The notes below the pieces were generated by a model. It was not told the origin of the DNA. It ran no database searches and saw only the letters and a program-made list of their open reading frames with translations. A stretch of 41,038 bases of DNA, from assembly GCA_018698135.1 (NCBI GenBank), contig JABINZ010000128.1:1-41038 (forward strand). The letters are read 5' to 3'. The stretch is from Bacteroidota bacterium. GTDB lineage: Bacteria; Bacteroidota; Bacteroidia; CAILMK01; JAAYUY01. The translations under genes and the position numbers were made by a program. Position 1 is the stretch's first letter. Every line of letters begins with the position of its first letter. This document shows, one piece after another, positions 3,651 through 28,324 of the stretch.

Positions 3651-5756
3651 CTATTCCTCATAAATTATTTCAGAATACTCGGGCAGTAGACCAATCACGC
3701 GAAATTCTGTGCGCCTGTTTTTCTGCCTTCCTTTAGGATTATCGCTGCCATCGGGATTTTCATTTGGCGCGATGGACTGAGTTTCGCCATATCCCTTAGC
3801 TTGCAATCTTTCCTTGGCAATTCCATTTTTAATGAGATAGTCAACTACACTTTGGGCTCTTCGTTGGCTTAATCTTTCATTATATGAAAGTGCACCTTTG
3901 CTATCGGTATGCGAACTTATTTCTGCAATAATTTTGGGATTATCCTGCATTAAAATAAGAATGGTTGAATCAATAATAGATTTGGCACTATCCGTTAAGT
4001 AGCTTTTGTCGAAAGGATAGTAAATATTTCTGATAACCAATGGCTTCTCGGGTATTTTAATAATATACAAGTCTCGAATTAATGTGTCAGTCTGCGTAAT
4101 TTCATATGTTTCAACTTGCCTTTGGCGACTGAAATAGTCATCTTTTGAAACCCTGATCTTATACTTATTCCCATTTTCTAATTTAAAACTGTAGGCTCCT
4201 TCAAAATCAGTGGTATCACTTTTAATTAAAAACTCAACATTTTCTTCATCGGGACTTATTAGATACAAGCTAACCACTGCTTGAAATGCAGGAACTCCAG
4301 TCATTATATCGGCATCAGGGCTTTCAGAAATCAGATTTTCTATGTATTGAACCTTTGCGGTATCTTCAATTGCAACTACATTTCCTTTTAAAATAATATT
4401 GATAAAATCAGGATAATTGAATGAGTAGATATCATCACAACAGCTTATTTTCTGTAGTATATTGCTTCCTGTACGATTGGACACCAAAAAGCCTTCCGAT
4501 TTATTATCTGGATTCAGCACATAATAAATATCATCGGCACAGGAATTAATTGGATAACCCAAATTAACCGGTTCTTCCCAGCGTTTCAGCTCTCCGGTTG
4601 ATTTAAAAACATCTAGTCCACCAATATTTGTTTTACCATTCGAACTATAATATAATCGATGATTTTCCAGATCGTAAAATGGTGTTGTTTCATCACCTGG
4701 GCTATTGATTTTACCACCCATATTTTTTGGTGCTGAAAAAGCATTTGTTTTGGTGCTAAATACGCTATACCATAAATCCATGCCCCCTTTACCTCCCGGT
4801 CGATCGGAAGCAAAATAGAGCACTTCATAACCTCTTTTTGACTCTATTGCAACGGCAGGTTGTGTGGATGTGTAATACCTCAGATTGATCGGTTTTTCGA
4901 TCATTTTAGGAGATTGCCATTTCCCTTTTTTCTTTTCAGAATAATAAATTGCACAGCTATTTTTGCTGTCACTATTTTGGTTACATACTGTAAAGTAAAA
5001 TCGATTCCCATGCGGGCAAAGCACGCCATTGCCAACATCAGCTCCAGGAATATTGAATGAGTCGCTAATTTCAAATCCTCCTTGCCAGATATCATTGATC
5101 TTTTTGGCATGATAAAACGAACTGCTTATTTCTTTTTCCTTCGTTTGATCATCTAAATACCTAATTACTTCATTTACCCGAACTGATGCAAAAATCATTA
5201 GCGAATCATTCAAGGGAAATGGGGAATAGTCTATATGATCAAAATTTACAGTTTCATTTAATTTGTTGATATGGACATTTAATGGCTTTTCGAGCTGTTC
5301 AAGAGCTAAATCACAGCCATCAATTTCTTTACGTGCAAGTTTACGGTAAAGAGCATTTTCGCCTTTTCCTTTTAGTTTTTTCCGTGCTTTTGTCAAGGTT
5401 TCTTTTGCAAGTTCATACTCACCATTCATTTTTAACATAACACCATAATGAAACAATGATTTAGCATATTTCTTTGGCTTTAAATCATAAGCAATCTTAT
5501 AATATTCTTTGGCTTTCTCATAATCTCGAATTCTTTCGTATAGTTGGGCTAAATGAAAACTAGTATAGGGCCTGTTAGGAGATTGTTGAATATATTTTTC
5601 ATAATTTTCAATGGCGGCATACACATCTCCATACCTTTCATAGAGCAAGGCTTTCTTCTTCAGCTTAGACGGTTTTTCCTGTGCAAATGAAGAAAAAGAC
5701 ATGCATAGAATAATAATTGACAGCCACGCAACAGATATGTTCTTATTAATAATCAA
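3651..5756 (-). CDS. PorE-like TPR/beta-propeller/CRD/OmpA lipoprotein-type T9SS component
   Basis: 701 residues. The start is TTG 5756, because the first ATG lies inside the signal peptide (about 1-25, ending SFAQ). Domains in order: TPR repeats (about 30-130, e.g. GDVYAAIENYEKYI, DYEKAKEYYKIAYDLKP); a PD40/WD40-type propeller (about 170-450, with blades such as YFASDRPGGKGGMDLW and LYYSSNGKTNIGGLDVF); a carboxypeptidase-regulatory-like beta domain (about 450-560); and a C-terminal OmpA domain (about 575-690) with SHTDSKG, YNERLSQRRA and NRRTEF, the peptidoglycan-contact elements. This order and length match PorE, known to link the T9SS to peptidoglycan in Porphyromonas gingivalis. There is no obvious lipobox. 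The gene is 12 bp behind the porP/sprF-like gene and certainly co-transcribed. It could instead be a paralogue dedicated to the neighbouring adhesin. Confidence 0.85.
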   Translation of the reverse strand: MIINKNISVAWLSIIILCMSFSSFAQEKPSKLKKKALLYERYGDVYAAIENYEKYIQQSPNRPYTSFHLAQLYERIRDYEKAKEYYKIAYDLKPKKYAKSLFHYGVMLKMNGEYELAKETLTKARKKLKGKGENALYRKLARKEIDGCDLALEQLEKPLNVHINKLNETVNFDHIDYSPFPLNDSLMIFASVRVNEVIRYLDDQTKEKEISSSFYHAKKINDIWQGGFEISDSFNIPGADVGNGVLCPHGNRFYFTVCNQNSDSKNSCAIYYSEKKKGKWQSPKMIEKPINLRYYTSTQPAVAIESKRGYEVLYFASDRPGGKGGMDLWYSVFSTKTNAFSAPKNMGGKINSPGDETTPFYDLENHRLYYSSNGKTNIGGLDVFKSTGELKRWEEPVNLGYPINSCADDIYYVLNPDNKSEGFLVSNRTGSNILQKISCCDDIYSFNYPDFINIILKGNVVAIEDTAKVQYIENLISESPDADIMTGVPAFQAVVSLYLISPDEENVEFLIKSDTTDFEGAYSFKLENGNKYKIRVSKDDYFSRQRQVETYEITQTDTLIRDLYIIKIPEKPLVIRNIYYPFDKSYLTDSAKSIIDSTILILMQDNPKIIAEISSHTDSKGALSYNERLSQRRAQSVVDYLIKNGIAKERLQAKGYGETQSIAPNENPDGSDNPKGRQKNRRTEFRVIGLLPEYSEIIYEE

Positions 5757-5768
5757 TTGATAATAATA

Positions 5769-6785
5769 TTAAAAGCGTTCGCATGGAATAGATTTCTGAA
5801 ATGCCAACGAACTTATTTTCTTATAAACCAGTGAAAATTCAATTGCCCCCTGATTATGTGTGCTTGTACTCAATTCTGATACATTCAAATCATAGCTTAA
5901 ACCAATATCAAAATGTCTTAATGAGATGCCGGTCTGAATAATTGCAGCATCGAAATTTCTTTTAATTCCATTTCTAGAATATAATCCTCCATATACATGC
6001 TGAAAACCACCCATTGTTTTACCAATTTCATAGGTTAAGCCCATACCTATAATAAGTTCTGATGCCAGTGCATGTTCAGTAAATAGTATGGTTGGTGCAA
6101 TATCCAGTCTGCCTTTCAAATCAAAACGAGCAATTGTGTAATAGGATTTCCTAACCTTCAATTGATTTCCTGTTCCAAAAAAACTTTCTCCCGGTGTGTT
6201 TAAGTGATACAAACTAACACCAACTTCAGGCTTAAAATCCCCAAAGCTACCAGTCCAAAGAATACCTGCATTAATATCTGGATAATAGATTGTTGTTGGA
6301 GAACCTGTATCGGAAGAGGGAAAAGTAGGGTCATAAAAACCGGTGAGTTTATTATATTGATCAGGAAAAGTTAAAGCATTTGCTGAAATATTTTTATTCA
6401 CCATTCCGGCTTGAATGCCAATATGAAATTCTTGTCTTTGAACTAATTTATGATAGGCCAAGTTTAAAAACAATTTATTAACAGCCAATTCAGCATCACC
6501 TGACTTATCGTTTACGAGTAATAAACCAATTCCAAATTTCTCTTTTCGAAGGTAAATTGCTTTATCGAGGGAGATCGCATTTGTGCTATAGGGAATAGGC
6601 ATAGTAAACCATTGAGTACGATATATATCGGCTAATCGAAGTTCACCCTGATAATGACCAGAATTTGCTGGATTAACAACCAATGGAGAAGCATAGAATT
6701 GAGAAAAATGAACATCCTGAGATCGAACACTAAATGCCAATAATGCCAACAAACTGATAGATATGATATGAATTCGGTATCTCAA
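5769..6785 (-). CDS. PorP/SprF family type IX secretion outer-membrane protein
   Basis: 338 residues when started at TTG 6785, giving a clean signal peptide (MRYRIHIISISLLALLAFS, cleaved before QDVHFSQ). No ATG exists in the N-terminal region. A TTG at 6809 is also open, but it lies inside the predicted -7 box, so translation from it is unlikely. The mature N-terminus DVHFSQFYASPLVVNPANSG is the PorP/SprF family signature, and the rest is an alternating beta-barrel pattern. Family members sit in the outer membrane, couple to the T9SS and help deliver or attach type B sorting-domain proteins such as SprB. The gene leads an operon with the PorE-like gene and is divergent from a type B PKD adhesin, its probable client. 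Confidence 0.88.
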   Translation of the reverse strand: MRYRIHIISISLLALLAFSVRSQDVHFSQFYASPLVVNPANSGHYQGELRLADIYRTQWFTMPIPYSTNAISLDKAIYLRKEKFGIGLLLVNDKSGDAELAVNKLFLNLAYHKLVQRQEFHIGIQAGMVNKNISANALTFPDQYNKLTGFYDPTFPSSDTGSPTTIYYPDINAGILWTGSFGDFKPEVGVSLYHLNTPGESFFGTGNQLKVRKSYYTIARFDLKGRLDIAPTILFTEHALASELIIGMGLTYEIGKTMGGFQHVYGGLYSRNGIKRNFDAAIIQTGISLRHFDIGLSYDLNVSELSTSTHNQGAIEFSLVYKKISSLAFQKSIPCERF

Positions 6786-6793
6786 TAATTTAG

Positions 6794-6837
6794 TATATTT
6801 GTTATACAAATATAGATAATCTCAGGCTTTCATCAAT
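6794..6837. promoter_or_regulatory. Overlapping divergent promoter, perfect 8-bp palindrome
   Basis: Positions 6794-6814 read TATATTTG-ttata-CAAATATA, so both strands carry a perfect TAnnTTTG -7 box, 5 nt apart. For the minus strand (porP/sprF-like) an ATTG -33 element lies at 6834-6837, with exactly 19 nt between the boxes. The plus strand (adhesin) has only a weak TTCG at 6773-6776. The symmetry implies that the two promoters exclude each other or share one regulator or polymerase footprint. Confidence 0.65.
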
Positions 6838-6853
6838 TTTCAGCTTTTCAACA

Positions 6854-9800
6854 ATGCAAAATAAAAAAAGTATTTTTTACACAAGAATAGTTATTTCTTG
6901 TATTGTTATTTTGCAAGTTAGTATTGTCCAAGCTCAGCCCATTGCTAAATTTACTTCAGATATCGTTTCCGGATGTAATCCTATTGTTGTTTCATTTACA
7001 GATCAATCAACTGGTGGGCCAACTACTTGGTTTTGGGATTTTGGCAATGGAAACACCTCCACCCTTCAAAATCCACAAGTATCTTATACCGTGAGTGGAA
7101 GCTATACAGTCTCTTTAAAAGCAACAAATTCCAGTGGATCAAATACAATATCAAAAACTGCATATATAACTGTTTTCAAAAACCCTACAGCCAATCTAAC
7201 CGCAACTTCTGCTACAAATGGTTGTGTTCCTTTTACCATTGGTTTTTCTGATCAAAGCATTGAAGGAGATGGTGTAGTATCGAAATGGACATGGGATTTT
7301 GGCGATGGCGGAATTTCAGCTGCTAAAAACCCGACCTATACCTATAGTACATCGGGTGTATATAATGTTTCTTTGCATGTTGTGGATATTAATGGCTGTT
7401 CAGACACACGGGTTTATACAAGCTATATTACTGTTAATTCAAAGCCAAAACCCCAGTTTAGTGTCAACACAAGCACATATTGCAGTATTCCTGCTGCCGT
7501 TACTTTTACAAATTCTTCCACAGGCAATGGAACATTAACATATCGATGGGACTTTGGTGATGGAAACACCGCTAATAGCAAAGACACAACCTATACCTAT
7601 TTAACTTCAGGAACTTATAACGTTAAACTGGTCGTAACTGATCAGAATGGATGTTCAGACTCAATTATTGAAAATAGTTTTGTAAAAATAAATAGTATCA
7701 AAGCTAGTTTTAAACCCGATAACGACTCGATTTGCCCAGGCGTATTGGTTGCTATGAATGATGCATCAAATGGTGCAAATAGTTATTTTTGGAGTTTTGG
7801 TGATGGAAATACAACCACTGTTCCAAACCCAAAGTATATCTATTTTAATCCCGGAACCTATGTTGTTAAGTTAAAGGTTGAAAATACCGGCAATTGCAAG
7901 GATAGCATTAGCAAAACCATATTAGTGGATGATATTGAGGCTGGTTACAGTGCGTTTCCTTTGCAAACATGTCATATTCCATTTGAAGTTGATTTTACAG
8001 ATCTTTCAAAAAACGCAGTCAGTTGGGTATATTATTTTGGCAATGGAGATACTTCTCATAGCCAGAATCCAACCTATAGTTATCAGACAGTAGGGTCACA
8101 CCAAACAAGCCTGGTTGTAAAATCAGCAGCCGGATGTACAGATTCTTTTGCATTTAAAAAACAGGTAAACATCGAACCACCTGTGGCAGAATTCATAGGC
8201 GATACGATGCGTGGTTGTGCCCCATTAACGGTTAATTTTACTGACAAAAGTTTTTCAAACGAGACTATAATCAGTTGGAAATGGTATTTCAGTGATGGCG
8301 ATTCTTCACATCTGCAAAATCCAACACACACATTTTATGATGATACTACATATCAGGCAACATTATTTATTGAAAACGACTCTGGTTGCGTCAGCTTTAC
8401 GTATAAAATAATTGAAGTAGGATTAAAACCTATTATTGATTTTATTGTAATGCCTGATTCAAATTGTGCTCACGACTCAGTTCTATTTGCCGATATGTCA
8501 ACAAATCCAAATGGAAAGCCAAATGATGAATGGCTTTGGACTTTCGGAGATATGATGACAGGATCAGGGGCAAACGTGTACCACATGCATGTAGATACAG
8601 GCTATATGAAAACCATGCTTATAGTTGGCCAAAACGGATGTTATGATACCTTGATTGTTGATAGTTCCAACTATGTATTGGCTCCGGTTTCCATTGTATT
8701 ACCATTCTTTGCTTGTGATTCTCCATTTAATTATACTTTTATTCAAATACCAAAAGGTGTTGATCATTGGGAAATTGACTTTGGCGATGGATTAAAGCTC
8801 GATCATTTAACCAATGACACCTTAACTCACACATATGGAGCATATGGCAATTACAAGGTTAAAACTAAAGCTTACAATGACAGCACAGGATGTACCTGGC
8901 CCAATGAAATTGATGTCAATATAGGTCATCTGGATGCTGATTTTATGTTCTCAGATTCAACTCCTTGTGTAGGAGATAGTATATTATTTGTTTTAAAAAC
9001 AGGTAGTAACTTCAACACATACTGGAAATTTGGAAATGGAAATACCTCATCCGATTACTTGCCCTTATATGCCTATAATAAACCCGGCACCTATCGTGTT
9101 GATCTGTTAGCTATTGATTTTAGCGGTTGCCGAGATAGTGTATCCAAATTTATAACAGTTTCCAGCATCACAGCCGATTATCAGGCTGATAGTTTTATTT
9201 GTGTTCCAGATCAAGTTGTATTTACGGATTTAAGCAGTTCCGATACGACTATTGTTAGTTGGAATTGGCATTTTGGAAATGGGCAATATTCCACCAATCA
9301 AAACCCAACACATAACTATGTACAGAGTGGAACTTTTAGCCCACGTTTAATTGTTGTTAATGCTGCTGGTTGTGCTGACACCATCATGAAAACTGCCAGT
9401 ATTTTTGCAAGCAAACCAACAGCAGGTTTTTATACACTTGATAACTCACTATGTTTACACGATTCTGCCGTATTTGTGAATACCTCAAGTGGAATACTAT
9501 CAGATTATGATTGGACATTTGGAGATGGAAGCAGTTCAAAAGATATTGTTCCTGGGCATATCTATTCAAAAGCAGGGCAATATAGCATTCGCTTAATAGT
9601 TACAGATACTGCAGGGTGTAAGGATACAGCAACTGTTAATAATTATATTCAAGTTGAAGATTCTGTAATTGCGAATTTCTTTGCTGATACTATATTTTCT
9701 AACTGTTACCCCTTGTTGGTAAAATTTTCTGATCAGTCAATAGCCTCAAATATTATCTATTGGGAATGGGATTTTGGAGATAATACAGCCCTTTCTTTTA

Positions 9801-10696
9801 TTCAAAACCCAGCACATAATTATCAGTTGCCGGGCACATATGATGTGCAGTTGAATATTATAACATCTTTTGCCTGTGTGGATACCATTTCTAAAACAAA
9901 ATATATTACGGTAAAAGGCCCACTAGCCGATTTTGAGGTCGATCCAGATACAATTTGCACCTATGAATTTGTTAAATTCACACTTATACAAAAAGAAAAT
10001 GTGAAGTTGTTTGAATGGGATTTTGGCGATGGCTATGTTGAAACCGGTCAGATCGATTCTATCCTTCATACATATTCAAGAGGTGGTGTGTTTTTTCCTA
10101 AGCTTATCTATGAAGATTCAACTGGCACATGTCGTAAATCAGCGGATGATCTTGTTTTTGTTTCACAAGTAATAGCTGATTTTCAACCAAGTGATACCAA
10201 CGGAACTGTTCCTCTGCTTATCGATTTCACAAATTTTTCATCAACAAATGCTATTTCATGGATTTGGAATTTTGGAGAAGGAGCAGATACCATGAGCGAA
10301 GATGCTGCTCATTATTATAAAATGGCAGGAGATTATCTGGTTTCCTTAATCGTTCAAAACGACTTTGGCTGTTTGGATAGTATTACCAAATTAATAGTTA
10401 TTGATCCTCTTGAAGCCTTGGTTGATTTTCCAAGCGCATTTACACCCAATGGGGATGGAAAAAACGATCAGGTTAAAGTTGAAGGCTATGGCGTTCGATT
10501 TAAAGAGTTACTTGGATTTCAGATATTCAACCGTTTTGGGGAGGTTGTTTTTGAAACAAGCGATCCTGAAATTGGATGGGATGGTTATTACAAAGGAAAA
10601 TTACAAAATATGGAAACCTATATTTATCTGGTTACTGTAAAAACATTTGAAGATCAGGTTATTTCAGAAAAAGGATATATTAGTTTGCTTTATTAA
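6854..10696 (+). CDS. Giant PKD-repeat adhesin with T9SS type B sorting domain
   Basis: 1280 residues with a signal peptide (about 1-27, ending VQAQ). It carries 14 PKD-type repeats of roughly 80 residues, recognisable by their W-x-F-G-(D/N)-G cores: WFWDFGNG, WTWDFGDG, YRWDFGDG, YFWSFGDG, YYFGNG, WYFSDG, WTFGDM, IDFGDG, WKFGNG, WHFGNG, WTFGDG, WDFGDN, WDFGDG and WNFGEG. Most repeats also have a conserved Cys early (e.g. GCNPI, GCVPF, GCAPL) and another in a late GC-x-D motif, so intradomain disulphides are plausible. The last 85 or so residues (FTPNGDGKNDQ, FNRFGEVVFE, WDGYYKGK) are the gliding-motility type B C-terminal domain that directs export through T9SS. It is probably a surface adhesin or filament, SprB-like in export but much shorter. 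It shares a palindromic promoter with its likely PorP/SprF partner. Confidence 0.92.
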   Translation: MQNKKSIFYTRIVISCIVILQVSIVQAQPIAKFTSDIVSGCNPIVVSFTDQSTGGPTTWFWDFGNGNTSTLQNPQVSYTVSGSYTVSLKATNSSGSNTISKTAYITVFKNPTANLTATSATNGCVPFTIGFSDQSIEGDGVVSKWTWDFGDGGISAAKNPTYTYSTSGVYNVSLHVVDINGCSDTRVYTSYITVNSKPKPQFSVNTSTYCSIPAAVTFTNSSTGNGTLTYRWDFGDGNTANSKDTTYTYLTSGTYNVKLVVTDQNGCSDSIIENSFVKINSIKASFKPDNDSICPGVLVAMNDASNGANSYFWSFGDGNTTTVPNPKYIYFNPGTYVVKLKVENTGNCKDSISKTILVDDIEAGYSAFPLQTCHIPFEVDFTDLSKNAVSWVYYFGNGDTSHSQNPTYSYQTVGSHQTSLVVKSAAGCTDSFAFKKQVNIEPPVAEFIGDTMRGCAPLTVNFTDKSFSNETIISWKWYFSDGDSSHLQNPTHTFYDDTTYQATLFIENDSGCVSFTYKIIEVGLKPIIDFIVMPDSNCAHDSVLFADMSTNPNGKPNDEWLWTFGDMMTGSGANVYHMHVDTGYMKTMLIVGQNGCYDTLIVDSSNYVLAPVSIVLPFFACDSPFNYTFIQIPKGVDHWEIDFGDGLKLDHLTNDTLTHTYGAYGNYKVKTKAYNDSTGCTWPNEIDVNIGHLDADFMFSDSTPCVGDSILFVLKTGSNFNTYWKFGNGNTSSDYLPLYAYNKPGTYRVDLLAIDFSGCRDSVSKFITVSSITADYQADSFICVPDQVVFTDLSSSDTTIVSWNWHFGNGQYSTNQNPTHNYVQSGTFSPRLIVVNAAGCADTIMKTASIFASKPTAGFYTLDNSLCLHDSAVFVNTSSGILSDYDWTFGDGSSSKDIVPGHIYSKAGQYSIRLIVTDTAGCKDTATVNNYIQVEDSVIANFFADTIFSNCYPLLVKFSDQSIASNIIYWEWDFGDNTALSFIQNPAHNYQLPGTYDVQLNIITSFACVDTISKTKYITVKGPLADFEVDPDTICTYEFVKFTLIQKENVKLFEWDFGDGYVETGQIDSILHTYSRGGVFFPKLIYEDSTGTCRKSADDLVFVSQVIADFQPSDTNGTVPLLIDFTNFSSTNAISWIWNFGEGADTMSEDAAHYYKMAGDYLVSLIVQNDFGCLDSITKLIVIDPLEALVDFPSAFTPNGDGKNDQVKVEGYGVRFKELLGFQIFNRFGEVVFETSDPEIGWDGYYKGKLQNMETYIYLVTVKTFEDQVISEKGYISLLY

Positions 10697-10745: not shown

Positions 10746-11759
10746 ATGAAAGCGTTAAAATGGATTGGAATTGTTTTAATACTACTTATTGCCATTCTCT
10801 TCGTTGTTTCTTTATTTTTACCGAGTGATTATTACACGGAGAAATCAAAAGTAATTGATGCTCCCACATGGTCTGTATTTGAGGAAGTTGCCGACTATAA
10901 CAACTGGCCAAAATGGGATCCATGGAATGCTGCTGACACAAATATGCAAAGTACAGTAGTTGGCGAAATGGGCGTTGGACAAGTGAGAAGCTGGGTTAGT
11001 GAAAGTCAGGGAAATGGATCAATGGAAACACTTGAGCTTGTAGAAAATGAGCTAAGCAAAGGCAAGCTGATGTTCGAAGGAATGGATAATCATGCTTTTA
11101 ATAAATTTGTATTGGAAGAAGTAGAAGGAGGAACAAAAGCAACTTGGTCAATTGAAGGCGATGTAGGTTTTAATCCGATTGCCAGATATTGGATGCTATT
11201 AGCAAAAGGACAAATGAAAAAATCCTTTGAAAATGGCTTGAATAACCTTCAGGCACTGTGTGAGGCAAAACCAAAAGAAAAGGCAGTAGTTGTTACTGTT
11301 GAAACAAAAGATTTTGAAGGTATTAACTACATCGGAATCAAACATGCATTAACAGATAAAAATACTTTTGGCCAAGTTATGGGGCAAGATTTTCAAGTTA
11401 TGATGGCGTTTATGGCGATTCATAAAATTGAAATGGCAGGCGCTCCATTTTCCCGTTATTTACAATGGAGCGATAAAGATGGTGACACCATTATTTTTGA
11501 AAGTTGCCTTCCTGTTGCTGACATTGGTAAAGGAGACGAAAATGTCTATTTCGGGCAAATTGAAGCTAGCAAAGTGGCAGCAGCCATGCACTTTGGTGCA
11601 TACGAAAAAATTGGACCTGTTTACTATGCAATAGAAGATTATATTGCTGAAAATGCTTTGGAAATAATTGGCGGTCCTTGGGAAGTTTATTTAACTGATC
11701 CAGGTAAAGAACCTGATCCAAGTAAATGGATGACAGAAGTTTATTATCCGATAAAATAA
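10746..11759 (+). CDS. SRPBCC (START-like) plus GyrI-like ligand-binding protein
   Basis: 337 residues from ATG 10746; an in-frame upstream extension to 10647 overlaps the adhesin gene and has no signal-like start. Residues 1-25 form one N-terminal membrane helix (KWIGIVLILLIAILFVVSLFL). Residues about 28-170 match the polyketide cyclase/SRPBCC pattern (VIDAPTWSVFEEVADYNNWPKWDPW). Residues about 180-337 form a GyrI-like/AraC effector-binding domain ending PWEVYLTDPGKEPDPSKWMTEVYYPI, with the expected acidic positions. This two-domain architecture is common in Bacteroidota and probably binds a small hydrophobic ligand; the ligand is unknown. It lies 49 bp after the adhesin and is followed by a hairpin terminator. 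Confidence 0.8.
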   Translation: MKALKWIGIVLILLIAILFVVSLFLPSDYYTEKSKVIDAPTWSVFEEVADYNNWPKWDPWNAADTNMQSTVVGEMGVGQVRSWVSESQGNGSMETLELVENELSKGKLMFEGMDNHAFNKFVLEEVEGGTKATWSIEGDVGFNPIARYWMLLAKGQMKKSFENGLNNLQALCEAKPKEKAVVVTVETKDFEGINYIGIKHALTDKNTFGQVMGQDFQVMMAFMAIHKIEMAGAPFSRYLQWSDKDGDTIIFESCLPVADIGKGDENVYFGQIEASKVAAAMHFGAYEKIGPVYYAIEDYIAENALEIIGGPWEVYLTDPGKEPDPSKWMTEVYYPIK

Positions 11760-11782: not shown

Positions 11783-11817
11783 AAGCTCCATCTTTTAGTA
11801 GATGGGGCTTTTTTTAT
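11783..11817. terminator. Hairpin terminator between convergent genes
   Basis: AGCTCCATC and GATGGGGCT pair (one G-U) around an 8-nt loop, followed by TTTTTTT on the plus strand. It ends the SRPBCC gene. It also lies directly after the stop of the last GldM-C-like gene, so it could serve both directions. Confidence 0.75.
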
Positions 11818-12476
11818 TCTTTTACTGTCAAAACGATAGCGCCAGGTAATTGCTTGCTCCCACCTTCTGGTACTTCAACATAAATGTTTGCGCAAATAAT
11901 TATATCTCCAACTTTGGGCTCCTTGAGCATGTTAAGAGCTGATTTATGCAACTTTGCACTACTACATGGATAAAATGATGCTGGTCCTTCCTTAGGTTGA
12001 TAAACGAATTTATATTTCGAGATTTTATAGTTTAAATCTTTCGGGCCTTCTAGGTTAACGGTTAATTCAGTCACATTTTTAACATTGTCGATACTAAGCT
12101 CCCCCTTTGACTCTCCACCAAAAGTTACAGTTGGACCTGAAATGTTTTTAATAGGGTATTTTACTCGACAAATAATAATATTTTTGTCATTTTTGACTTT
12201 GAAAAAAGTAATTATTGCCACTTTTTTCTGGTTCTCCTTCGTCTTGGGAATATGAATGACAAAAAGCCCTTTCTCAAATGTGACTTTTCCCTGATTGCAA
12301 ATGACTTTTACATTTGCTGCATTGATTTTCTTGTTTTTGAGTTCCAGCTTGTTGTTCCATCCAACATAAAGCGCATCTCCGCTATGATTAATAATTCTGG
12401 ACTTTCCCTTAAACTGTGCATTAGCACTTGAAAAAACCAGAGAAAAGGCGATTAAAGCAAATAGTATCTTTTTCAT
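11814..12476 (-). CDS. Secreted GldM C-terminal-like protein, paralogue 4
   Basis: 220 residues with a signal peptide (about 1-20, ending ANAQ). It is the most divergent of four tandem paralogues. The first beta domain (about 30-115) keeps ALYVGWNNKLEL, in the place of NVLYxGxxNPIxIxV in GldM, and FEKGLFVIHIP. The second (about 118-220) keeps VTFGGESKGELSI, KISKYKFVYQPKEGPASFYPC, PKVGDIIICANIYV and LPGAIVLTV, the order seen in the last periplasmic domain of GldM. The N-terminal membrane helix and helical domain of real GldM are absent, so it cannot be a motor subunit. It has Cys in both domains. It is the last gene of the run, 11 bp after paralogue 3. The GldM assignment comes from motif resemblance, not a profile search. 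Confidence 0.7.
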   Translation of the reverse strand: MKKILFALIAFSLVFSSANAQFKGKSRIINHSGDALYVGWNNKLELKNKKINAANVKVICNQGKVTFEKGLFVIHIPKTKENQKKVAIITFFKVKNDKNIIICRVKYPIKNISGPTVTFGGESKGELSIDNVKNVTELTVNLEGPKDLNYKISKYKFVYQPKEGPASFYPCSSAKLHKSALNMLKEPKVGDIIICANIYVEVPEGGSKQLPGAIVLTVKE

Positions 12477-12487
12477 AATTGTAATTT

Positions 12488-13159
12488 TTATTCGACAACT
12501 GATAACACAATTGAGCCGGGAAGTTGCCTGTTTCCTTTGGTTGCAATATCTGCAAATATTCTACTGACAATAATCACTGATCCGGCTTCAAGCCCATAAA
12601 TAACTTCCTTGACTTCTTGTGACAATTGAGTTCCTTTATGCTGGTAGGATGTACTTGTATTATCTGTCTTTTGTATAATGATTTCAAATGATGTTACTTG
12701 AAAAAGGATATCTCTATAATAGAACCAATCCATGTCCACATATACTGAATCCATATCCTTCAATTTGGCTTGTCTGATTTCTCCACCAGCATAGCCATTC
12801 AAAACAGGTGTTGGATTTGGAACCCGGAGAATATTAAACTCTTTTTTCCCAGCAGGAGTTAACTTTAAGTCTTCTTTAATAAATACAGAAATGGTCAGTT
12901 TCCAAATTTTCTGTCTCGAATCTTTTACAGACAAAAAATACTGTCCATCTTTTTTTGTTAGCAGTCCAAAATCTGTTTTCAGTTCAATTTGATCAAACTG
13001 ATAGCCCGGAACTGATACATTGATGGGGTTTTCCAAACCAATATAAACAATGCTAACAGCTTCTGCCGCAATTACTGCTTTTGGTGCTAAAGCTGGTTGG
13101 GCAAAAATTACAGAAGAAAACAGAATGAATGTGAGTAAGGCAAGAAATAACTTTTTCAT
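12488..13159 (-). CDS. Secreted GldM C-terminal-like protein, paralogue 3
   Basis: 223 residues with a signal peptide (about 1-20, ending IFAQ). The D3-like part (about 37-115) has VYIGLENPINVSVPG, then GLLTKKDGQYFLSVKD and FNILRVPNPTPVLNG, all close to the GldM pattern (xYxGxxNPxxxxVxG ... F-x-V/I-x-x-I/V-P-x-P ... G). The D4-like part (about 118-223) has GGEIRQAKL, VTSFEIIIQ, YGLEAGSVIIVSRIFAD and RQLPGSIVLSV. In GldM and PorM these domains project from the motor toward the GldK-GldN ring; here they form a free periplasmic or exported protein. A 99-bp gap separates this gene from paralogue 2, so a second promoter is possible, though I see no exact TAnnTTTG box there. Confidence 0.72.
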   Translation of the reverse strand: MKKLFLALLTFILFSSVIFAQPALAPKAVIAAEAVSIVYIGLENPINVSVPGYQFDQIELKTDFGLLTKKDGQYFLSVKDSRQKIWKLTISVFIKEDLKLTPAGKKEFNILRVPNPTPVLNGYAGGEIRQAKLKDMDSVYVDMDWFYYRDILFQVTSFEIIIQKTDNTSTSYQHKGTQLSQEVKEVIYGLEAGSVIIVSRIFADIATKGNRQLPGSIVLSVVE

Positions 13160-13258
13160 AATCGTGTATTTAGTTCACACAAACCTTTACAAATTTTTAA
13201 TATGTAAATATACAAAAAATAACGTTTAAATTGGGTTATTCGTATAAACAGATGCTTT

Positions 13259-13933
13259 TCATTCTACGGTTAATACAATAGCTCCTGGCAATTGTTTTGT
13301 TGAGTTGTTATTATAATGCGCATAAATGTTAGAGAATATCAAAATATCCCCTTTTTTAACATTTGAGAGTACTGCAATAATTTCTTCTGATATTGCAGCG
13401 CTATCACAAGGAATAAACTGGGCAAGGCCTTCAACAGGTTGAATAACAAATTTAAATTTATCAACGGTATAGGTTATTCCATCCAAAACATAATCAGGTT
13501 TAATAGTGATTTCTTTTACTGTTTTAACTTCCTCGGGGCTTATTGTTCCTCCACTTTTTGAACCAAAACAAGGATATGGGTGCAATACTTTTTTAATTTT
13601 AAAAGAGCTATTTCCTGCAAAATAAAAACTGTCGTTTATATTTACATAAACACTTAATACAGCCTCTCTAACCTTCCCTCTTGTATCTTTAACTTTAAGA
13701 ATATATTGGCCATTCTCTCCTGTCAATGTTCCTTGATTAGTTTTCACTTTTATCTGATCATTTGAATATCCTGGAACACTGACTGACAAAGTATTATCAA
13801 GGCCGAGATAAACTGCATTCATTTTAGAAGCAGAAACTACACAACTATAACTTACTGAGGAATCCAGTTCCTGAGCATAACTATTTCCGATAATTAAAGC
13901 AGTAAGGACAATATAACAAACCAGAGATCTCAT
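13259..13933 (-). CDS. Secreted GldM C-terminal-like protein, paralogue 2
   Basis: 224 residues from ATG 13933, which overlaps the stop of paralogue 1 as ATGA and gives a proper signal peptide (MRSLVCYIVLTALIIGNSYAQ). The longer open frame reaching 13996 adds 21 residues of no signal character and overlaps the upstream gene, so I reject it. GldM-like marks: AVYLGLDNTLSVSVPGYSND, GTLTGENGQYILKVKD, FKIKKVLHPYPCFGSKSGGTIS, YTVDKFKFVIQPVEG, VKKGDILIFSNIYA and LPGAIVLTVE. The overlap implies translational coupling and an equal dose of paralogues 1 and 2, possibly a heteromer. Confidence 0.72.
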   Translation of the reverse strand: MRSLVCYIVLTALIIGNSYAQELDSSVSYSCVVSASKMNAVYLGLDNTLSVSVPGYSNDQIKVKTNQGTLTGENGQYILKVKDTRGKVREAVLSVYVNINDSFYFAGNSSFKIKKVLHPYPCFGSKSGGTISPEEVKTVKEITIKPDYVLDGITYTVDKFKFVIQPVEGLAQFIPCDSAAISEEIIAVLSNVKKGDILIFSNIYAHYNNNSTKQLPGAIVLTVE

Positions 13934-14592
13934 CGCACTTCTATAATATGTGGCTCGCGAATAAGTCTGCTTGGCAACCCCGGGGCCGAATACCAAACAT
14001 TGGCAATTATGTATTTATCGCCTCTTTTAGGATTGTCAAATGATTTTTTCATTTCATCGGTAAGCATGTGACTTTTGCTTTTGTATATGCTTGCAAACCC
14101 ATTTTTAGGTTGATAAATAAATTCAAACTTATCTACCATAAAACTTAGATCAAATGGGAAATCTTCTAAACGAAGGGCAACAAAATTTCTTATTCGAATT
14201 TCTCCAGAATATGGATATGTTGAGCCAAAATAAATTGTAGGCTTTGGAATTGGCCTTATCCTGAAATACTTTGAGCACACATATTTAATATTGTTTGCTG
14301 TTGTCACATAAACCTTGATTTCAACTTTAGAAAAAACCTGACCATCATCTTTTATATGAAGCGAATATTCCCCTTTTTCTCCTTTTAATATTCCTATGGA
14401 CGATTCTGCAATGATATGCTCAGGAAGAACTCCCATTACAGCTATTGAAATAGGATTATCGATATCCAGATAAACTAAATTAAGCAGTTTGACTGAAATT
14501 ACAGGTGGTGGAATGAAAAACGAATCTGCAGTTTGTGCATGAGATGGACTAAACAAGAATAGAATTAAAACAAAAGCCAGGTAGTTTTTCAC
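13930..14592 (-). CDS. Secreted GldM C-terminal-like protein, paralogue 1
   Basis: 220 residues from a GTG start at 14592 with a signal peptide (about 1-19, ending SHAQ). It is the first gene of the minus-strand run. It shows the best GldM resemblance of the four: LVYLDIDNPISIAVMGV, GILKGEKGEYSLHIKDDG, YFRIRPIPKPTIYFG, then LRLEDFPFDLSFMVDKFEF, matching the GldM pattern in which LxDFDFDLxxxVxxF opens the last domain, and PKRGDKYIIANVWY. Its end (REPHIIEVR) departs from the LPGxIVLxV ending shared by the other three. It is divergent from the GldN-like genes over a 110-bp region. Role inferred: periplasmic partner of GldN-type proteins. Confidence 0.74.
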   Translation of the reverse strand: MKNYLAFVLILFLFSPSHAQTADSFFIPPPVISVKLLNLVYLDIDNPISIAVMGVLPEHIIAESSIGILKGEKGEYSLHIKDDGQVFSKVEIKVYVTTANNIKYVCSKYFRIRPIPKPTIYFGSTYPYSGEIRIRNFVALRLEDFPFDLSFMVDKFEFIYQPKNGFASIYKSKSHMLTDEMKKSFDNPKRGDKYIIANVWYSAPGLPSRLIREPHIIEVR

Positions 14593-14702
14593 GAATCCAG
14601 ATTTATTTTGATGCTTTTATAACGTTTGTTTTGTGTTTTATTATATATTTATTGGATTAAAATATACCATTTTTTCATATCAAGCGTTTAGAAAAATAAA
14701 AT

Positions 14703-15758
14703 ATGTTCCGAAAATTCGCTTTTCTACTTATACTCCATTTGTTTATTAATCAGCTTACTGCCCAGGAATTAACATACAGAAAAATTAATTTGAATGATTA
14801 TCTCGGCCAAAAAACAGTTGATGAACTCAATACACTTATTTATCATGAAGCCTTGTCAGGAAAAATAAAGGCCTACAAAACGGACACGCTTGTCAATAGT
14901 TATACGATCGAAGAACTTAATAGCTTGGGTGAATGGACAGATTGGATAGAAGTTTGTCCAGAGCCAAAATATCCGAATGATTGCTATGATTCAACAATAG
15001 TCAATGAGTTTAGGACAGATGATTTAATTGGAAACCTCATTGCCGAGAAATGGGCATTTGATTTAAAGAAAAAACAAATATTTGTTGAATACCACTCTTT
15101 TGCACTTATGCATAATTTAACCTATGCAGGATATGCTTTAGGAGAACAACCATTGTTCTGGATAGATTTAGATGACCTGGCTAAAATATTGAATCCTGAT
15201 GAGCTCAAACTGTTCATGGATGCATTGTTTAATGAAACACTTTCCTTTTACAATGATTTTGACGAAAATAGCGCAATAACAAAAAGACTCCTTTCGCCTA
15301 ATGACTATATTGGCAAATTTACTTTTCAGGAATATAATTCAAGCCTTTACTCTGCAGCACTTAACCAAGATATTCCTTCCTATAAAACTATTGCTCTTGA
15401 TTCTGCGTATGATATAAAAGCGCTGAAAAACAGGGGTAGCAAGGAATACGACAGATTTTATCCCGATCCTGAATATCCAGATTATGGATTTGACACTTTA
15501 TATACTAAATTTTGGAATCCAAAAGAAATAGAATCATTTATAATTTCTGAGCAGATTATCTTTGATAAGATAAGGTTTTCTTATAAATACAACATTCGTT
15601 CTATTGGATTACTGTATGTAACTCCAGATATACAAATTGATATTTGTTATTTCGCTTATACTGATTTGAAAAAAGCACTTAAAAAGTATGAAATAAGCGG
15701 ACTCACAAAAGCTATTTACAATGCAACTGTTGATCAGCATAAATTTCATAAAGACTAA
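14703..15758 (+). CDS. Secreted protein with two GldN/PorN-like repeats, paralogue A
   Basis: 351 residues with a signal peptide (about 1-20, ending LTAQ). Repeat 1 (about 26-180) follows GldN order: LSGKIKAYKT (compare the GxITAYxxxD stretch of GldN), a Cys-containing loop (VCPEPKYPNDC), IAEKWAFDLKKKQ (compare IKExWxFDKxxS), and EQPLFWIDLDDLAKIL with FWI at 152-154 (compare PLFWxYFPxxRxxL). Repeat 2 (about 197-345) repeats the layout (DYIGKFTFQEYNSSLYSAALNQDIPSYKT ... SEQIIFDKIRFSY ... YFAYTDLKKAL) but has lost the FW pair. GldN works in a periplasmic ring with GldK and contacts GldM; a double-repeat secreted version is unusual. The gene is paired with paralogue B 15 bp downstream. Assignment is by motif order, not a profile search. 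Confidence 0.68.
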   Translation: MFRKFAFLLILHLFINQLTAQELTYRKINLNDYLGQKTVDELNTLIYHEALSGKIKAYKTDTLVNSYTIEELNSLGEWTDWIEVCPEPKYPNDCYDSTIVNEFRTDDLIGNLIAEKWAFDLKKKQIFVEYHSFALMHNLTYAGYALGEQPLFWIDLDDLAKILNPDELKLFMDALFNETLSFYNDFDENSAITKRLLSPNDYIGKFTFQEYNSSLYSAALNQDIPSYKTIALDSAYDIKALKNRGSKEYDRFYPDPEYPDYGFDTLYTKFWNPKEIESFIISEQIIFDKIRFSYKYNIRSIGLLYVTPDIQIDICYFAYTDLKKALKKYEISGLTKAIYNATVDQHKFHKD

Positions 15759-15773
15759 TTCTGAAAATAAAGT

Positions 15774-16862
15774 ATGCACATTCATAAATTAAAATACAGC
15801 TTCATTTTTAAGGCAATTGTCCTCCAGCTTGTTTTAGTTTTTTTATGCAATAACCTTGTTGCCCAGCAACTAAGCTCACGAAAAATAAACTTAGACGATT
15901 TTCTTGGTCGAAAAACAATAGATGAATTCAACACACGTATTTATTATGCTGCTATTTCAGGAAAAATTAATGCATACAAAACCGAAAAATTAATCGAAAC
16001 CTATTCACCAGAAGAACGAAAGGGTGCTGGTGGAGTTGAATGCATTGTCGAAATTTGTCCTGATCAAGAAAATCCAGATTATTGCTACGATTCAATCCTG
16101 CTTAATCCTTTTAGCACAGAACAGATTCGTGGAAGCTACATTGCAGAACAATGGTGGTTGAATACAAAAAAGAATCAATTTGGAGCTAATTTTTATGCTT
16201 TTGCTCCTGCTTGTAACCTTATAATTGCTGGACAGAATTTGGGGACAAAACCACTATTCTGGATAAATTTAAGAGAGCTCAACAAAGTACTCAACAATTC
16301 TGAAATAATACTATTCAAGCAAGCCATTTTTAAGGAAACCCAATATGTTTACTCCGATTCAAAAGTTTTAAGTTCTAGAACGAAAAGAAAGATTGATTTA
16401 GAAGATTATATTGGAACAAACACCCTTTTCGACCAGAACTTGCTGATTTACAGCGCAGCATTCAAGCTAAAATGTCCAGCATATACTTCCGTTGATCTCG
16501 ATTCTGTTTATACTGCAATGGAGTTATTTTATCGGGGAACGGAAGACGTTTATGGATATCGTATTCCAGAACACCTCAATGATGAAATTGATTCGACATT
16601 AGTCACTACAAATCATAATGCTGAATTAAAACTAAATTCAATATCAGAAACTTTGCATTTTAATAAACAAGACTTTTCTTATACATCAGAGCTTAATGCT
16701 CTGGCATTACGAGAAAAATTATATACCAAAGGAGAAATTGATTTATTCTGGGTTTCGTATAAAGATTTGAAAAAAGTGCTTTCAAAACTCGAAATTGAAT
16801 TACTTACACACGCTATTTATAAAGCCACTGTTGATCAGCATCATATGTATAAAAGAGACTGA
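15774..16862 (+). CDS. Secreted protein with two GldN/PorN-like repeats, paralogue B
   Basis: 362 residues with a signal peptide (about 1-30, ending NLVAQ). It is clearly a paralogue of the preceding gene: both mature proteins begin with RKINLxDxLGxKT and end with ATVDQH. Repeat 1 (about 36-190) has ISGKINAYKT, IAEQWWLNTKKNQ, FAPACNLIIAG and TKPLFWINLRELNKVL. Repeat 2 (about 205-350) has DYIGTNTLFDQNLLIYSAA and EIDLFWVSYKDLKKVL, keeping the FW pair at 325-326 that paralogue A lost. Two Cys in the first-repeat loop (ICPDQENPDYC) are shared with paralogue A and could form a disulphide. It is the last gene of the plus-strand operon. Function unknown beyond the GldN resemblance. Confidence 0.68.
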   Translation: MHIHKLKYSFIFKAIVLQLVLVFLCNNLVAQQLSSRKINLDDFLGRKTIDEFNTRIYYAAISGKINAYKTEKLIETYSPEERKGAGGVECIVEICPDQENPDYCYDSILLNPFSTEQIRGSYIAEQWWLNTKKNQFGANFYAFAPACNLIIAGQNLGTKPLFWINLRELNKVLNNSEIILFKQAIFKETQYVYSDSKVLSSRTKRKIDLEDYIGTNTLFDQNLLIYSAAFKLKCPAYTSVDLDSVYTAMELFYRGTEDVYGYRIPEHLNDEIDSTLVTTNHNAELKLNSISETLHFNKQDFSYTSELNALALREKLYTKGEIDLFWVSYKDLKKVLSKLEIELLTHAIYKATVDQHHMYKRD

Positions 16863-25984: not shown

Positions 25985-28324
25985 ATGAAATCAGGCTTAT
26001 TTGTTATTTCATTATTGACACTTCTAATACATGGAAGTTTACAAGCTAATAATGACACTTTACGGATGCACGATCCTGAAAATGTTTTAACGAACTATTA
26101 TAATACAACAACCCATCCCAATCAGCTAGCCCGATTTGACCTCCCCAAACCTGCAATAATTAAAGGTTTTGAAATAACCTTAATGGGTGAGGCAGGATCA
26201 ACAGTAAATCTGAATTTTTTAGGCCACGAAGGTGGGGTGGCTTTGATTAGTTTGAAAAACAATATTGTTCCTACAATCACTGTTACAAAGTTGCAAGATG
26301 GCAAAGAACAGGTTTATGTTGCTTTGGATAGTCCGTTCATAAAAATGAATAACACACAGTTCTTCTTGCTTTTTAATGCTTTTAATGGAGCCGGTATTGT
26401 AACCGACAGAACCAATCATCCTTATAGTTGCAAGTCAAGTTCAGGTGGAGATTATTACTATCAGTATGGGATAAATAATGCCGGTGAATATCGTTTACTT
26501 TCAAATTTTAATCGGGCATTTGCAATTGATGTAATTTTGGAATATCCAGATAAAGAATCACAGCAAATATTCCTGGATGTTACCTTAACAGCTGGAATTG
26601 ACGAAAATCTTTCTAATTCAACTATTGCTGCTGCGGATTACAATGATGATGGGTTTGTTGATTTACTGATCAGGGGCAGGCTATATAAGAACTTAAAAAA
26701 TGGAAATTTTGAAGATGTTTCCCATCAGCTTGGAATAGTTAATCCCTATTCTGCGGTTGTGGCAAATGCATTTGTTGACAACGACAATGATGGCGATTTA
26801 GATATTTTTCTTTTTGGTTCAGATACCTCCGTATTGCTTATTAATAATGGAAATATATTTACTGAAATAATTCTCAATTTTCCTGAATTTAAAGCTTTTC
26901 TTTCCTTCAGCTTTGCTGACATTAACAACGACAACTATCCTGACCTATTTGTTTCACAACTTTGGAAAACATATCCAGAACCAGAGCTTAACTATTTCTT
27001 TTATAATACAGGAAGCAACAATTTCACAGATAATACGAATGTCATTTACCCTGAATATGATGGAAACTGGAACTGGCCTGGCCGTACATGGGATCCTGCC
27101 AATTATGTTGTAGAAAGAAACCGCAATAGCAGGGGGTCTCAGTGGATAGATTTCGATAATGATGGCGATCTTGATTTGTTTGTTACCAATTATTTCCTTC
27201 AACCGGATGAGTTTTATAGAAACAATGGTGATGGGAGTTTTACTGATATCTGTCAGGTTAAGGGAATTGATAAAAACAATACCGGCTCAAATCATGGAAC
27301 TGGAGTTGACTGGTATGACTTTGATAACGATGGCAATCTAGACCTATTATTACCCCAATTTGCTCACCCCAGATTTATTGGCGATTATGACCATCGTGGC
27401 ACCACAATTTATCGTAACAAGGGTGCGCCAGATTTTGAGTTTACTGATTTGATTGGACAATATAATAATTACTCCGGCTTGAAATCAGATATTGGCTTTG
27501 AGCTGGAAGAAACACATGCTGGAGGAGCCTGGGGAGATGTTAACAACGATGGCCTTGCCGATGTTTTGCTCACCGTATTTTATGGTTGCCGATACATTGA
27601 TATGTATGAGCAGCAAGAAGACAATTCATTTAAATTAGAAACTTTTAAATATGGCTTGTCGGGCATTAACACCGGAACAGATTTGGTTTGGTTGGATTAC
27701 GATAATGATGGACGACTTGACCTGGCTGGTGCAATTGCAGGAAAATTCAGGCTTTTTAAAAACAACCAATACAATAGTAGACGATGGATTGAATTGGATC
27801 TAAAAAGTAAAACAGCAAATAAATATTCAATAGGGGCTCGTGCCAGTGTATATGTTGATGGTAAAATATTAACACAGGAAGTTTGTGCTGGTAGGGGTCA
27901 AAAAATGCAAAAACCTTATCGTCTACATTTTGGTTTAGGTTATAACCCTACTATCGATTCAATAATGGTCACATGGCCAACACAGCCTCCCATTAAGGAA
28001 CGTTTTGATAATCTTAATGTAAATGAGATTTACACCTTGACTCAAGGCGGACAGGTTTTTAATAGTATTGAAAACTTGACAAAAGACCAAACAGAGATAA
28101 GAGTCTATCCCAATCCTGCATCATCCAAGCTTTATGTCTCAGGACAGGATATAAAAAGAATTCGTATAATGAGCACAATAGGCCAAATGTTATTAAATAT
28201 TTCTGTGAACAACATAAACCCAGTTCAGATTGATCTTTCAGCTTTTAAAAATGGAATGTATGCACTAGAGATAGAAACTGAAACAGATCGTGAGCTCCGA
28301 TTCTTTATGGTTAACAAACCCTAG
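25985..28324 (+). CDS. FG-GAP/VCBS repeat exoprotein with ASPIC/UnbV domain and T9SS type A tail
   Basis: 779 residues with a signal peptide (about 1-21, ending SLQA). At least seven calcium-binding FG-GAP loops are readable (DYNDDGFVDLL, DNDNDGDLDIF, DINNDNYPDLF, DFDNDGDLDLF, DFDNDGNLDLL, DVNNDGLADVL, DYDNDGRLDLA), forming a CRTAC1-like propeller. An ASPIC/UnbV domain follows (RWIELDLKSK, GARASVYVDG, LHFGLGYN, VTWPT). The last 75 or so residues (VYPNPASSKLYVSG ... IDLSAFKNGMYALEI) are a type A T9SS sorting domain, so the protein should be exported across the outer membrane. It is 5 bp downstream of recA, an odd partner. Its 3' end overlaps the DUF4834 gene by 4 bp on the other strand. Confidence 0.92.
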   Translation: MKSGLFVISLLTLLIHGSLQANNDTLRMHDPENVLTNYYNTTTHPNQLARFDLPKPAIIKGFEITLMGEAGSTVNLNFLGHEGGVALISLKNNIVPTITVTKLQDGKEQVYVALDSPFIKMNNTQFFLLFNAFNGAGIVTDRTNHPYSCKSSSGGDYYYQYGINNAGEYRLLSNFNRAFAIDVILEYPDKESQQIFLDVTLTAGIDENLSNSTIAAADYNDDGFVDLLIRGRLYKNLKNGNFEDVSHQLGIVNPYSAVVANAFVDNDNDGDLDIFLFGSDTSVLLINNGNIFTEIILNFPEFKAFLSFSFADINNDNYPDLFVSQLWKTYPEPELNYFFYNTGSNNFTDNTNVIYPEYDGNWNWPGRTWDPANYVVERNRNSRGSQWIDFDNDGDLDLFVTNYFLQPDEFYRNNGDGSFTDICQVKGIDKNNTGSNHGTGVDWYDFDNDGNLDLLLPQFAHPRFIGDYDHRGTTIYRNKGAPDFEFTDLIGQYNNYSGLKSDIGFELEETHAGGAWGDVNNDGLADVLLTVFYGCRYIDMYEQQEDNSFKLETFKYGLSGINTGTDLVWLDYDNDGRLDLAGAIAGKFRLFKNNQYNSRRWIELDLKSKTANKYSIGARASVYVDGKILTQEVCAGRGQKMQKPYRLHFGLGYNPTIDSIMVTWPTQPPIKERFDNLNVNEIYTLTQGGQVFNSIENLTKDQTEIRVYPNPASSKLYVSGQDIKRIRIMSTIGQMLLNISVNNINPVQIDLSAFKNGMYALEIETETDRELRFFMVNKP

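Follow-up and report, generated by a model that had tools for sequence, protein, structure and literature searches.

The window, a 41,038-nucleotide stretch that makes up contig C128 of a 4.2-Mb, 97%-complete Bacteroidota assembly, carries a divergent cluster of six genes (11814-16862) related to GldM and GldN, two core components of the type IX secretion system (T9SS). Four reverse-strand genes (11814-14592) each encode a signal peptide followed by the third and fourth domains (D3-D4) of GldM, and two forward-strand genes (14703-16862) each encode two tandem GldN cores (Table 1). The preliminary description of this DNA had recognized four orphan GldM-like and two orphan GldN-like genes that diverge over 110 bp, with no gldK, gldL or full gldM in the cluster, and Pfam and equivalog models bear this out.

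Table 1 Features of the GldM/GldN cluster and of its surroundings in the window.
Feature	Position	Strand	Basis
D34_1: signal peptide, strongly diverged D3, GldM D4	11814-12476	-	Pfam GldM_4th
D34_2: signal peptide, GldM D3-D4, without QPxxG loop	12488-13159	-	Pfam GldM_3rd and GldM_4th
D34_3: signal peptide, GldM D3-D4	13259-13933 (mechanical start 13996)	-	Pfam GldM_3rd and GldM_4th
D34_4: signal peptide, GldM D3-D4, GTG start	13930-14592	-	Pfam GldM_3rd and GldM_4th
Divergent intergenic region, 110 bp	14593-14702		
N1: signal peptide, two tandem GldN cores, GldK-docking elements gone	14703-15758	+	Pfam GldN (twice), alignment, tree
N2: signal peptide, two tandem GldN cores, GldK-docking elements gone	15774-16862	+	Pfam GldN (twice), tree
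PorE-like TPR-propeller-OmpA protein (context)	3651-5756	-	Pfam; NCBIfam T9SS_PorE, 309 bits, cut-off 600
PorP/SprF-like protein, C-terminal IPCERF (context)	5769-6809	-	Pfam, NCBIfam
PKD-repeat type B (CHU_C) T9SS adhesin (context)	6854-10696	+	Pfam; syntenic in G001 and G003
SRPBCC and GyrI-like gene, between adhesin and cluster (context, outside the module)	10752-11759	+	Pfam

D34_2, D34_3 and D34_4 match both GldM_3rd and GldM_4th above the curated Pfam cut-offs, and D34_1 matches GldM_4th alone (25.4 bits, cut-off 24.6) because its D3 has diverged. On the full-length GldM equivalog TIGR03517 the window copies score 47-71 bits, under the cut-off of 180, and match from model position ~319-332 onward; the core gldM of this genome, on contig C195, reaches 305 bits. 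The copies are 220-245 amino acids (aa) long, with the signal peptide immediately ahead of D3. The N-terminal transmembrane helix, D1 and D2 are absent, so that the copies are predicted to be exported, soluble and motorless. D34_3 probably starts at the ATG at 13933, which has a good signal peptide, and not at 13996, the start of the mechanical open reading frame; the gene overlaps D34_4 by ATGA. An AlphaFold2 model of D34_3 (predicted local distance difference test score, pLDDT, 80.9) contains two beta domains, and its seven best matches in the PDB are PorM or GldM chains (E 1e-13 to 2e-10), with PorM 315-516 (6ey6, 6ey5, 7cmg) and GldM 6ey4 at the top. The template modelling scores of these matches, 0.41-0.50 by query length, are probably lowered by a hinge between the two domains. 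On the forward strand, N1 and N2 match PF19841 (GldN) with 65 and 56 bits against a cut-off of 23; on the GldN equivalog TIGR03523 (cut-off 85.9 bits) one of them scores 21 bits and the other is unmatched. Scans of the divergent region for sigma-70 and Bacteroidota -33/-7 promoters gave no match above chance.

D4 of PorM, the GldM homolog, binds PorN on its own in two-hybrid assays, D2-D3 mediate dimerisation, and the KD of the PorM-PorN system is ~1 uM (PMC5790014). Cryo-electron microscopy of the PorKN ring shows PorK held by the N- and C-terminal helices of PorN, and crosslinks connect PorN D220 with PorK and PorM S460 with PorN A241 (PMC12421860); we related the published PorN numbering to that of the chain by an offset of 21, inferred from the D220/A241 spacing. 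Alignments with core GldNs and PorN indicate that three parts are missing from the window GldN cores and from the single GldN-like lipoprotein encoded on contig C73: the N-terminal extension, the counterpart of the D220 helix (core sequence NDAMRLNYLDFFEMRMF) and the C-terminal tail. With these parts gone, the window proteins should be unable to enter the ring or track of GldK. The first GldN repeat retains the CPxxxxPxxCYD and LFW motifs. On the GldM side, the QPxxG motif of the S460 loop is kept in three of the four window copies, D34_1, D34_3 and D34_4 (YQPKNG), as well as in both copies on contig C125, and a similar QPxxxG occurs in three of four D4-only proteins. In five of the six orphans, D4 is closer than D3 to the genome's own core GldM (44% vs 32% identity when pooled, p = 3e-5), a bias that the cores do not show; for D34_1 the values are 14% in D3 and 48% in D4. 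The preliminary description had pointed out that the two gene sets correspond to physical partners, and the published structures and interactions sharpen this: both sets are cut down to the domains by which GldM and GldN contact each other in the core complex (PMC5790014, PMC12421860). We read the cluster as a species-specific expansion of detached GldM-GldN interface domains that occur family-wide and probably serve as competitors or adaptors at the joint between motor and track, an explanation to which we give an even chance of being correct.

A complete gldKLMN operon, which the preliminary description had left to be sought elsewhere in the genome, lies on contig C195 (L017: porP, gldK, gldL, a 529-aa gldM and a 281-aa gldN). 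Two further tandem D3-D4 proteins are encoded on C125 (L020 2643-4181), and C237 encodes two tandem lipoproteins with GldM D1-D2 only (L021 7023-7904 and 7906-8805; Pfam GldM_1st/GldM_2nd and alignment), in which a lipobox replaces the transmembrane helix and which represent the half complementary to the D3-D4 orphans. The genome also encodes a D4-only exported protein (contig C155, L107 1144-1542), a single GldN-like protein on C120 and the lipoprotein on C73. GldM has therefore been split into complementary halves several times within one genome. The 4-to-4 repeat stoichiometry remarked on earlier has no meaning in this setting, because two D3-D4, one D4-only, two D1-D2 and two single GldN-like proteins are encoded elsewhere in the same genome.

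In a tree of core and orphan D3-D4 sequences, 12 rows are split from the 41 others with support of 96/97. This group consists of the six orphans of this genome, the orphan of the relative G002, four family cores and G008orphB, whose very long branch makes its place unsure. Within it, D34_2 groups with the G002 orphan (97/85). Derivation of the window D3-D4 genes from the family's own core gldM is well supported by this topology. In the GldN tree, the four window repeats form a clade (97/86) nested in a 100/100 clade with the C73-type lipoprotein, and an origin of the double GldNs from this family-wide single GldN-like lipoprotein is likewise well supported; C73- and C120-type GldNs are present in all four family genomes. 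The first repeats of N1 and N2 pair together, as do the second repeats (100/95 each), so the two-core gene formed first and the tandem duplication followed. Horizontal transfer of the orphans was considered and rejected, as they fall with the family cores in the trees. The D3-D4 half of GldM has probably become detached more than once in Bacteroidota, because the orphan D3-D4 proteins of G042, a genome of a distant family, group with their own core (83/92) and G008orphA lies, weakly, within the cores of its family (83/70). G042 also contains three double-GldN lipoproteins (L052 746-3704, L053 1035-2513) and its sister G080 contains one, all doubled independently of those in the window.

Comparison with relatives does not support the earlier proposal that the two gene sets evolved as a unit. 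In G001, a member of the same genus (JADHTG01, Bacteroidetes bacterium BS150m-G14), the adhesin-SRPBCC order is followed by an ortholog of D34_1 (L099 10169-10831, 46% aa identity) and then, where the contig stops, by an IS256-like transposase. The transposase is found at two contig ends of this genome (L099 10962-11202 and L100 8588-9709) with 139 identical overlapping bases, and the L100 side, which ends in the same insertion sequence (IS) element, carries SUI1 and a urocanase-like gene. This suggests that one IS256 copy in G001 occupies the site held here by D34_2 to D34_4 and the doubles, although IS copies, being repeats, leave some doubt about the join. G001, G002 and G003 yielded no double GldN. 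The D3-D4 gene of G002, a genome of another genus, has unrelated or housekeeping neighbours with no gldN alongside, and G080 has its double GldN and no D3-D4 orphan. In a set of 57 core-bearing genomes, the co-occurrence of orphan D3-D4 with orphan GldN is 5/8 vs 17/49 (Fisher p = 0.13), with classes assigned by hand in which the diverged D34_1 ortholog of G001 was missed. Orphan D3-D4 and GldN genes were seen to adjoin in this genome only, and fragmented or distant assemblies could conceal other cases. A scan of 84,980 genomes yielded no relative of the double GldN, and plasmids yielded none; the D3-D4 scan recovered only core GldMs, those of Sinomicrobium and G001. A GldN search across 149 genomes of the class had only core GldNs among the matches listed and was not used for orphans.

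These distributions bear on the possibility that the cluster is a self-contained accessory assembly in which all four D3-D4 proteins and both GldN doubles bind one another in an independent periplasmic lattice, an idea raised in the preliminary description. Such an assembly would account for the restriction of both sides to domains at which they touch in the core machine, and for their divergent placement over 110 bp, and G042 has arrived independently at a combination of double GldNs and D3-D4 orphans. However, in G001, G002 and G080 one set occurs apart from the other, the co-occurrence does not reach significance, and the cluster holds neither a membrane anchor nor a GldK-like lipoprotein. 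We consider this assembly unlikely.

Relative to G001, the ratio of nonsynonymous to synonymous substitution rates (dN/dS) is ~0.26 for D34_1, 0.23 for C120, 0.15 for C73 and 0.10 for the D4-only gene; core gldM has 0.08 and core gldN 0.02. These values are rough because dS is near saturation. At that precision, all four free-standing genes appear to be under purifying selection, the D4-only protein being the most constrained of the free domains. D4-only exported proteins of ~130 aa are encoded in all four family genomes (L107, as above; L108 7182-7583; L109 375-773; L110 3900-4307), and in three of them the gene adjoins a CYTH-domain-like gene. The other families sampled gave no clear match to the D4-only protein, with a weak match in G009. 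That the orphans are lineage-specific and evolve faster than core genes (0.15-0.26 vs 0.02-0.08) might point to neutral or decaying duplicates with no function. We regard such decay as very improbable: D34_1, C73, C120 and the D4-only gene show purifying selection, three types are retained family-wide, frames and signal peptides are intact in the copies examined, and codon-position bias resembles that of neighbouring genes.

The coarseness of these rates is one of several points that weigh against a role of the free domains as competitors or adaptors. The QPxxG loop is lost in D34_2 and reads YKPKDAG in the G001 ortholog of D34_1. D4 is not the better kept half between these two orthologs (42% identical, with D3 at about 47-48%), nor is it better conserved than D3 in the G042 orphans; the D4 bias is thus a tendency and not a rule, and the stricter statement that D4 is always the constrained half was rejected on these two cases. 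A short C-terminal helix kept in the GldN doubles may carry the A241 position, in a doubtful part of the alignment, and the AlphaFold2 model of the double GldN is poor (pLDDT 45). We know of no regulatory link to the core operon.

Some of this evidence would also fit a repurposing, in which the GldN fold and the Ig-like fold of D3-D4 have taken on unrelated binding tasks in the periplasm, away from the T9SS. Apart from the GldN-contact loop missing in D34_2, the D3 domains of D34_1 and its G001 ortholog, 48% identical to each other, are only 15-24% identical to any GldM D3, and in G014 and G054 a D3-D4-like protein is encoded inside an operon with an extracytoplasmic function (ECF) sigma factor and a putative anti-sigma factor. 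Yet D4 similarity and QPxxG persist in most copies, and the parts that were lost are exactly the ones by which each protein is fixed to its side of the machine. Repurposing of this kind strikes us as rather unlikely.

Domains of the motor and its partners also recur in other settings. At L065 4882-7863 and L068 7603-10505, in two families, an ECF sigma factor, a ~540-aa possible anti-sigma factor and a D3-D4-like protein share one operon; the D3-D4-like proteins of ECF operons form a 100/96 clade and may link T9SS state to transcription. In G041 (L070 5725-11331), genes for an accessory GldL-like, a short GldM-like and an OmpA/PorE-like protein stand in a row, a possible second motor set, and this GldM groups with a second full-length GldM of G005 (L091) at 99/93. 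In G016 (L071 6587-7639), a GldL_N-GldM_1st fusion adjoins a PorP/SprF gene and a sigma factor.

Next to the cluster, the window contains a type B adhesin module made up of a CHU_C protein, a PorP/SprF protein and a PorE-like protein that scores under the NCBIfam cut-off. In P. gingivalis, type B proteins, PorP and PorE are found in one complex with traces of PorK and PorN (PMC9143113). This PorE-PorP-type B C-terminal domain module resembles window 3651-10696 and differs from our locus in that it comprises no GldM- or GldN-like proteins. The cluster does lie past the type B adhesin and near the PorE- and PorP-like genes, as had been described, but the SRPBCC/GyrI-like gene, which has a 75% identical ortholog in the same place in G001, intervenes. 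This gene and the cluster converge and are separated by a terminator-like hairpin (11783-11810).

The cluster could be an adaptor that tunes secretion or movement of the neighbouring PKD adhesin together with the PorP and PorE partners. The order of adhesin, PorP, SRPBCC gene and D34_1 is conserved in G001, and the P. gingivalis complex with its traces of PorK and PorN offers a precedent. However, G003 has the adhesin-SRPBCC pair without any D3-D4 gene, the D3-D4 operon is separate and convergent, beyond another gene and the hairpin, and elsewhere most of the orphan D3-D4 and GldN genes are not next to an adhesin. The service to the adhesin envisaged in the preliminary description is therefore not shown, and we judge an adaptor of this kind unlikely.

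The PorP/SprF protein (5769-6809) has one cysteine in its C-terminal IPCERF; the C terminus of F. johnsoniae SprF has a twin-cysteine, which is bonded to GldK (PMC12635249). Elsewhere in the window, a reductive-dehalogenase-like Fe-S protein is encoded at 1345-2706 on the reverse strand (TIGR02486, 152 bits, just under the cut-off of 160), and an FG-GAP/ASPIC-UnbV protein with a type A T9SS sorting domain at 25985-28324 on the forward strand.

Additional T9SS core genes are not new in themselves: Flavobacterium johnsoniae has GldN and GldO. The same organism has extra porM orthologues (PMC5790014). The window genes resemble these as additional core genes and differ in that the F. johnsoniae copies known are full-length, whereas here only interface domains are present. 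With GldM/PorM (TIGR03517; Pfam GldM_1st-4th; 6ey4, 6ey5, 6ey6, 7cmg) the window copies share D3-D4 and the Ig-like fold, as duplicates within their own lineage; they differ in having a signal peptide for the transmembrane helix, no D1 or D2, a location outside the gldKLMN operon and scores below the equivalog level. With GldN/PorN (TIGR03523, PF19841; 7pvh, 9ots, 9mzu) the shared features are the GldN core and the motifs of the first repeat, and the differences are two cores per chain, loss of the GldK-docking parts and scores far under the equivalog cut-off. In the literature, of which our coverage was partial, we came across no free-standing protein made of D4, D3-D4 or D1-D2 and no double GldN. 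Additional homologues of GldM and GldN at full length are already known; free-standing interface domains are what differs here.

If the free domains are indeed competitors or adaptors at the joint between motor and track, the D3-D4 and D4-only proteins would bind GldN subunits in the periplasm, and the GldN cores would bind D4, either that of GldM or that of the free copies. Competition or adaptation of this kind could set the number of GldM arms engaged on the GldKN track, and each GldN double could bridge two D4 domains. Alternatively, the D4-bearing proteins and the GldN cores might neutralise each other. Their divergent placement could let the two opposing sides be co-regulated. A special case of this competitor-or-adaptor reading, which we put forward tentatively, is a periplasmic clutch: free D4 proteins would fill GldN sites on the GldKN track while GldN cores blind to GldK would capture the D4 arms of GldM, so that together they would set the number of motors engaged in secretion or gliding.

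If there are natural proteins that consist of only the D4 side or only the GldN side of the joint, they would be ready-made probes of how GldLM motors pass force to the GldKN track and possibly regulators of this transfer, and the D4-only protein provides a small, family-conserved test case.

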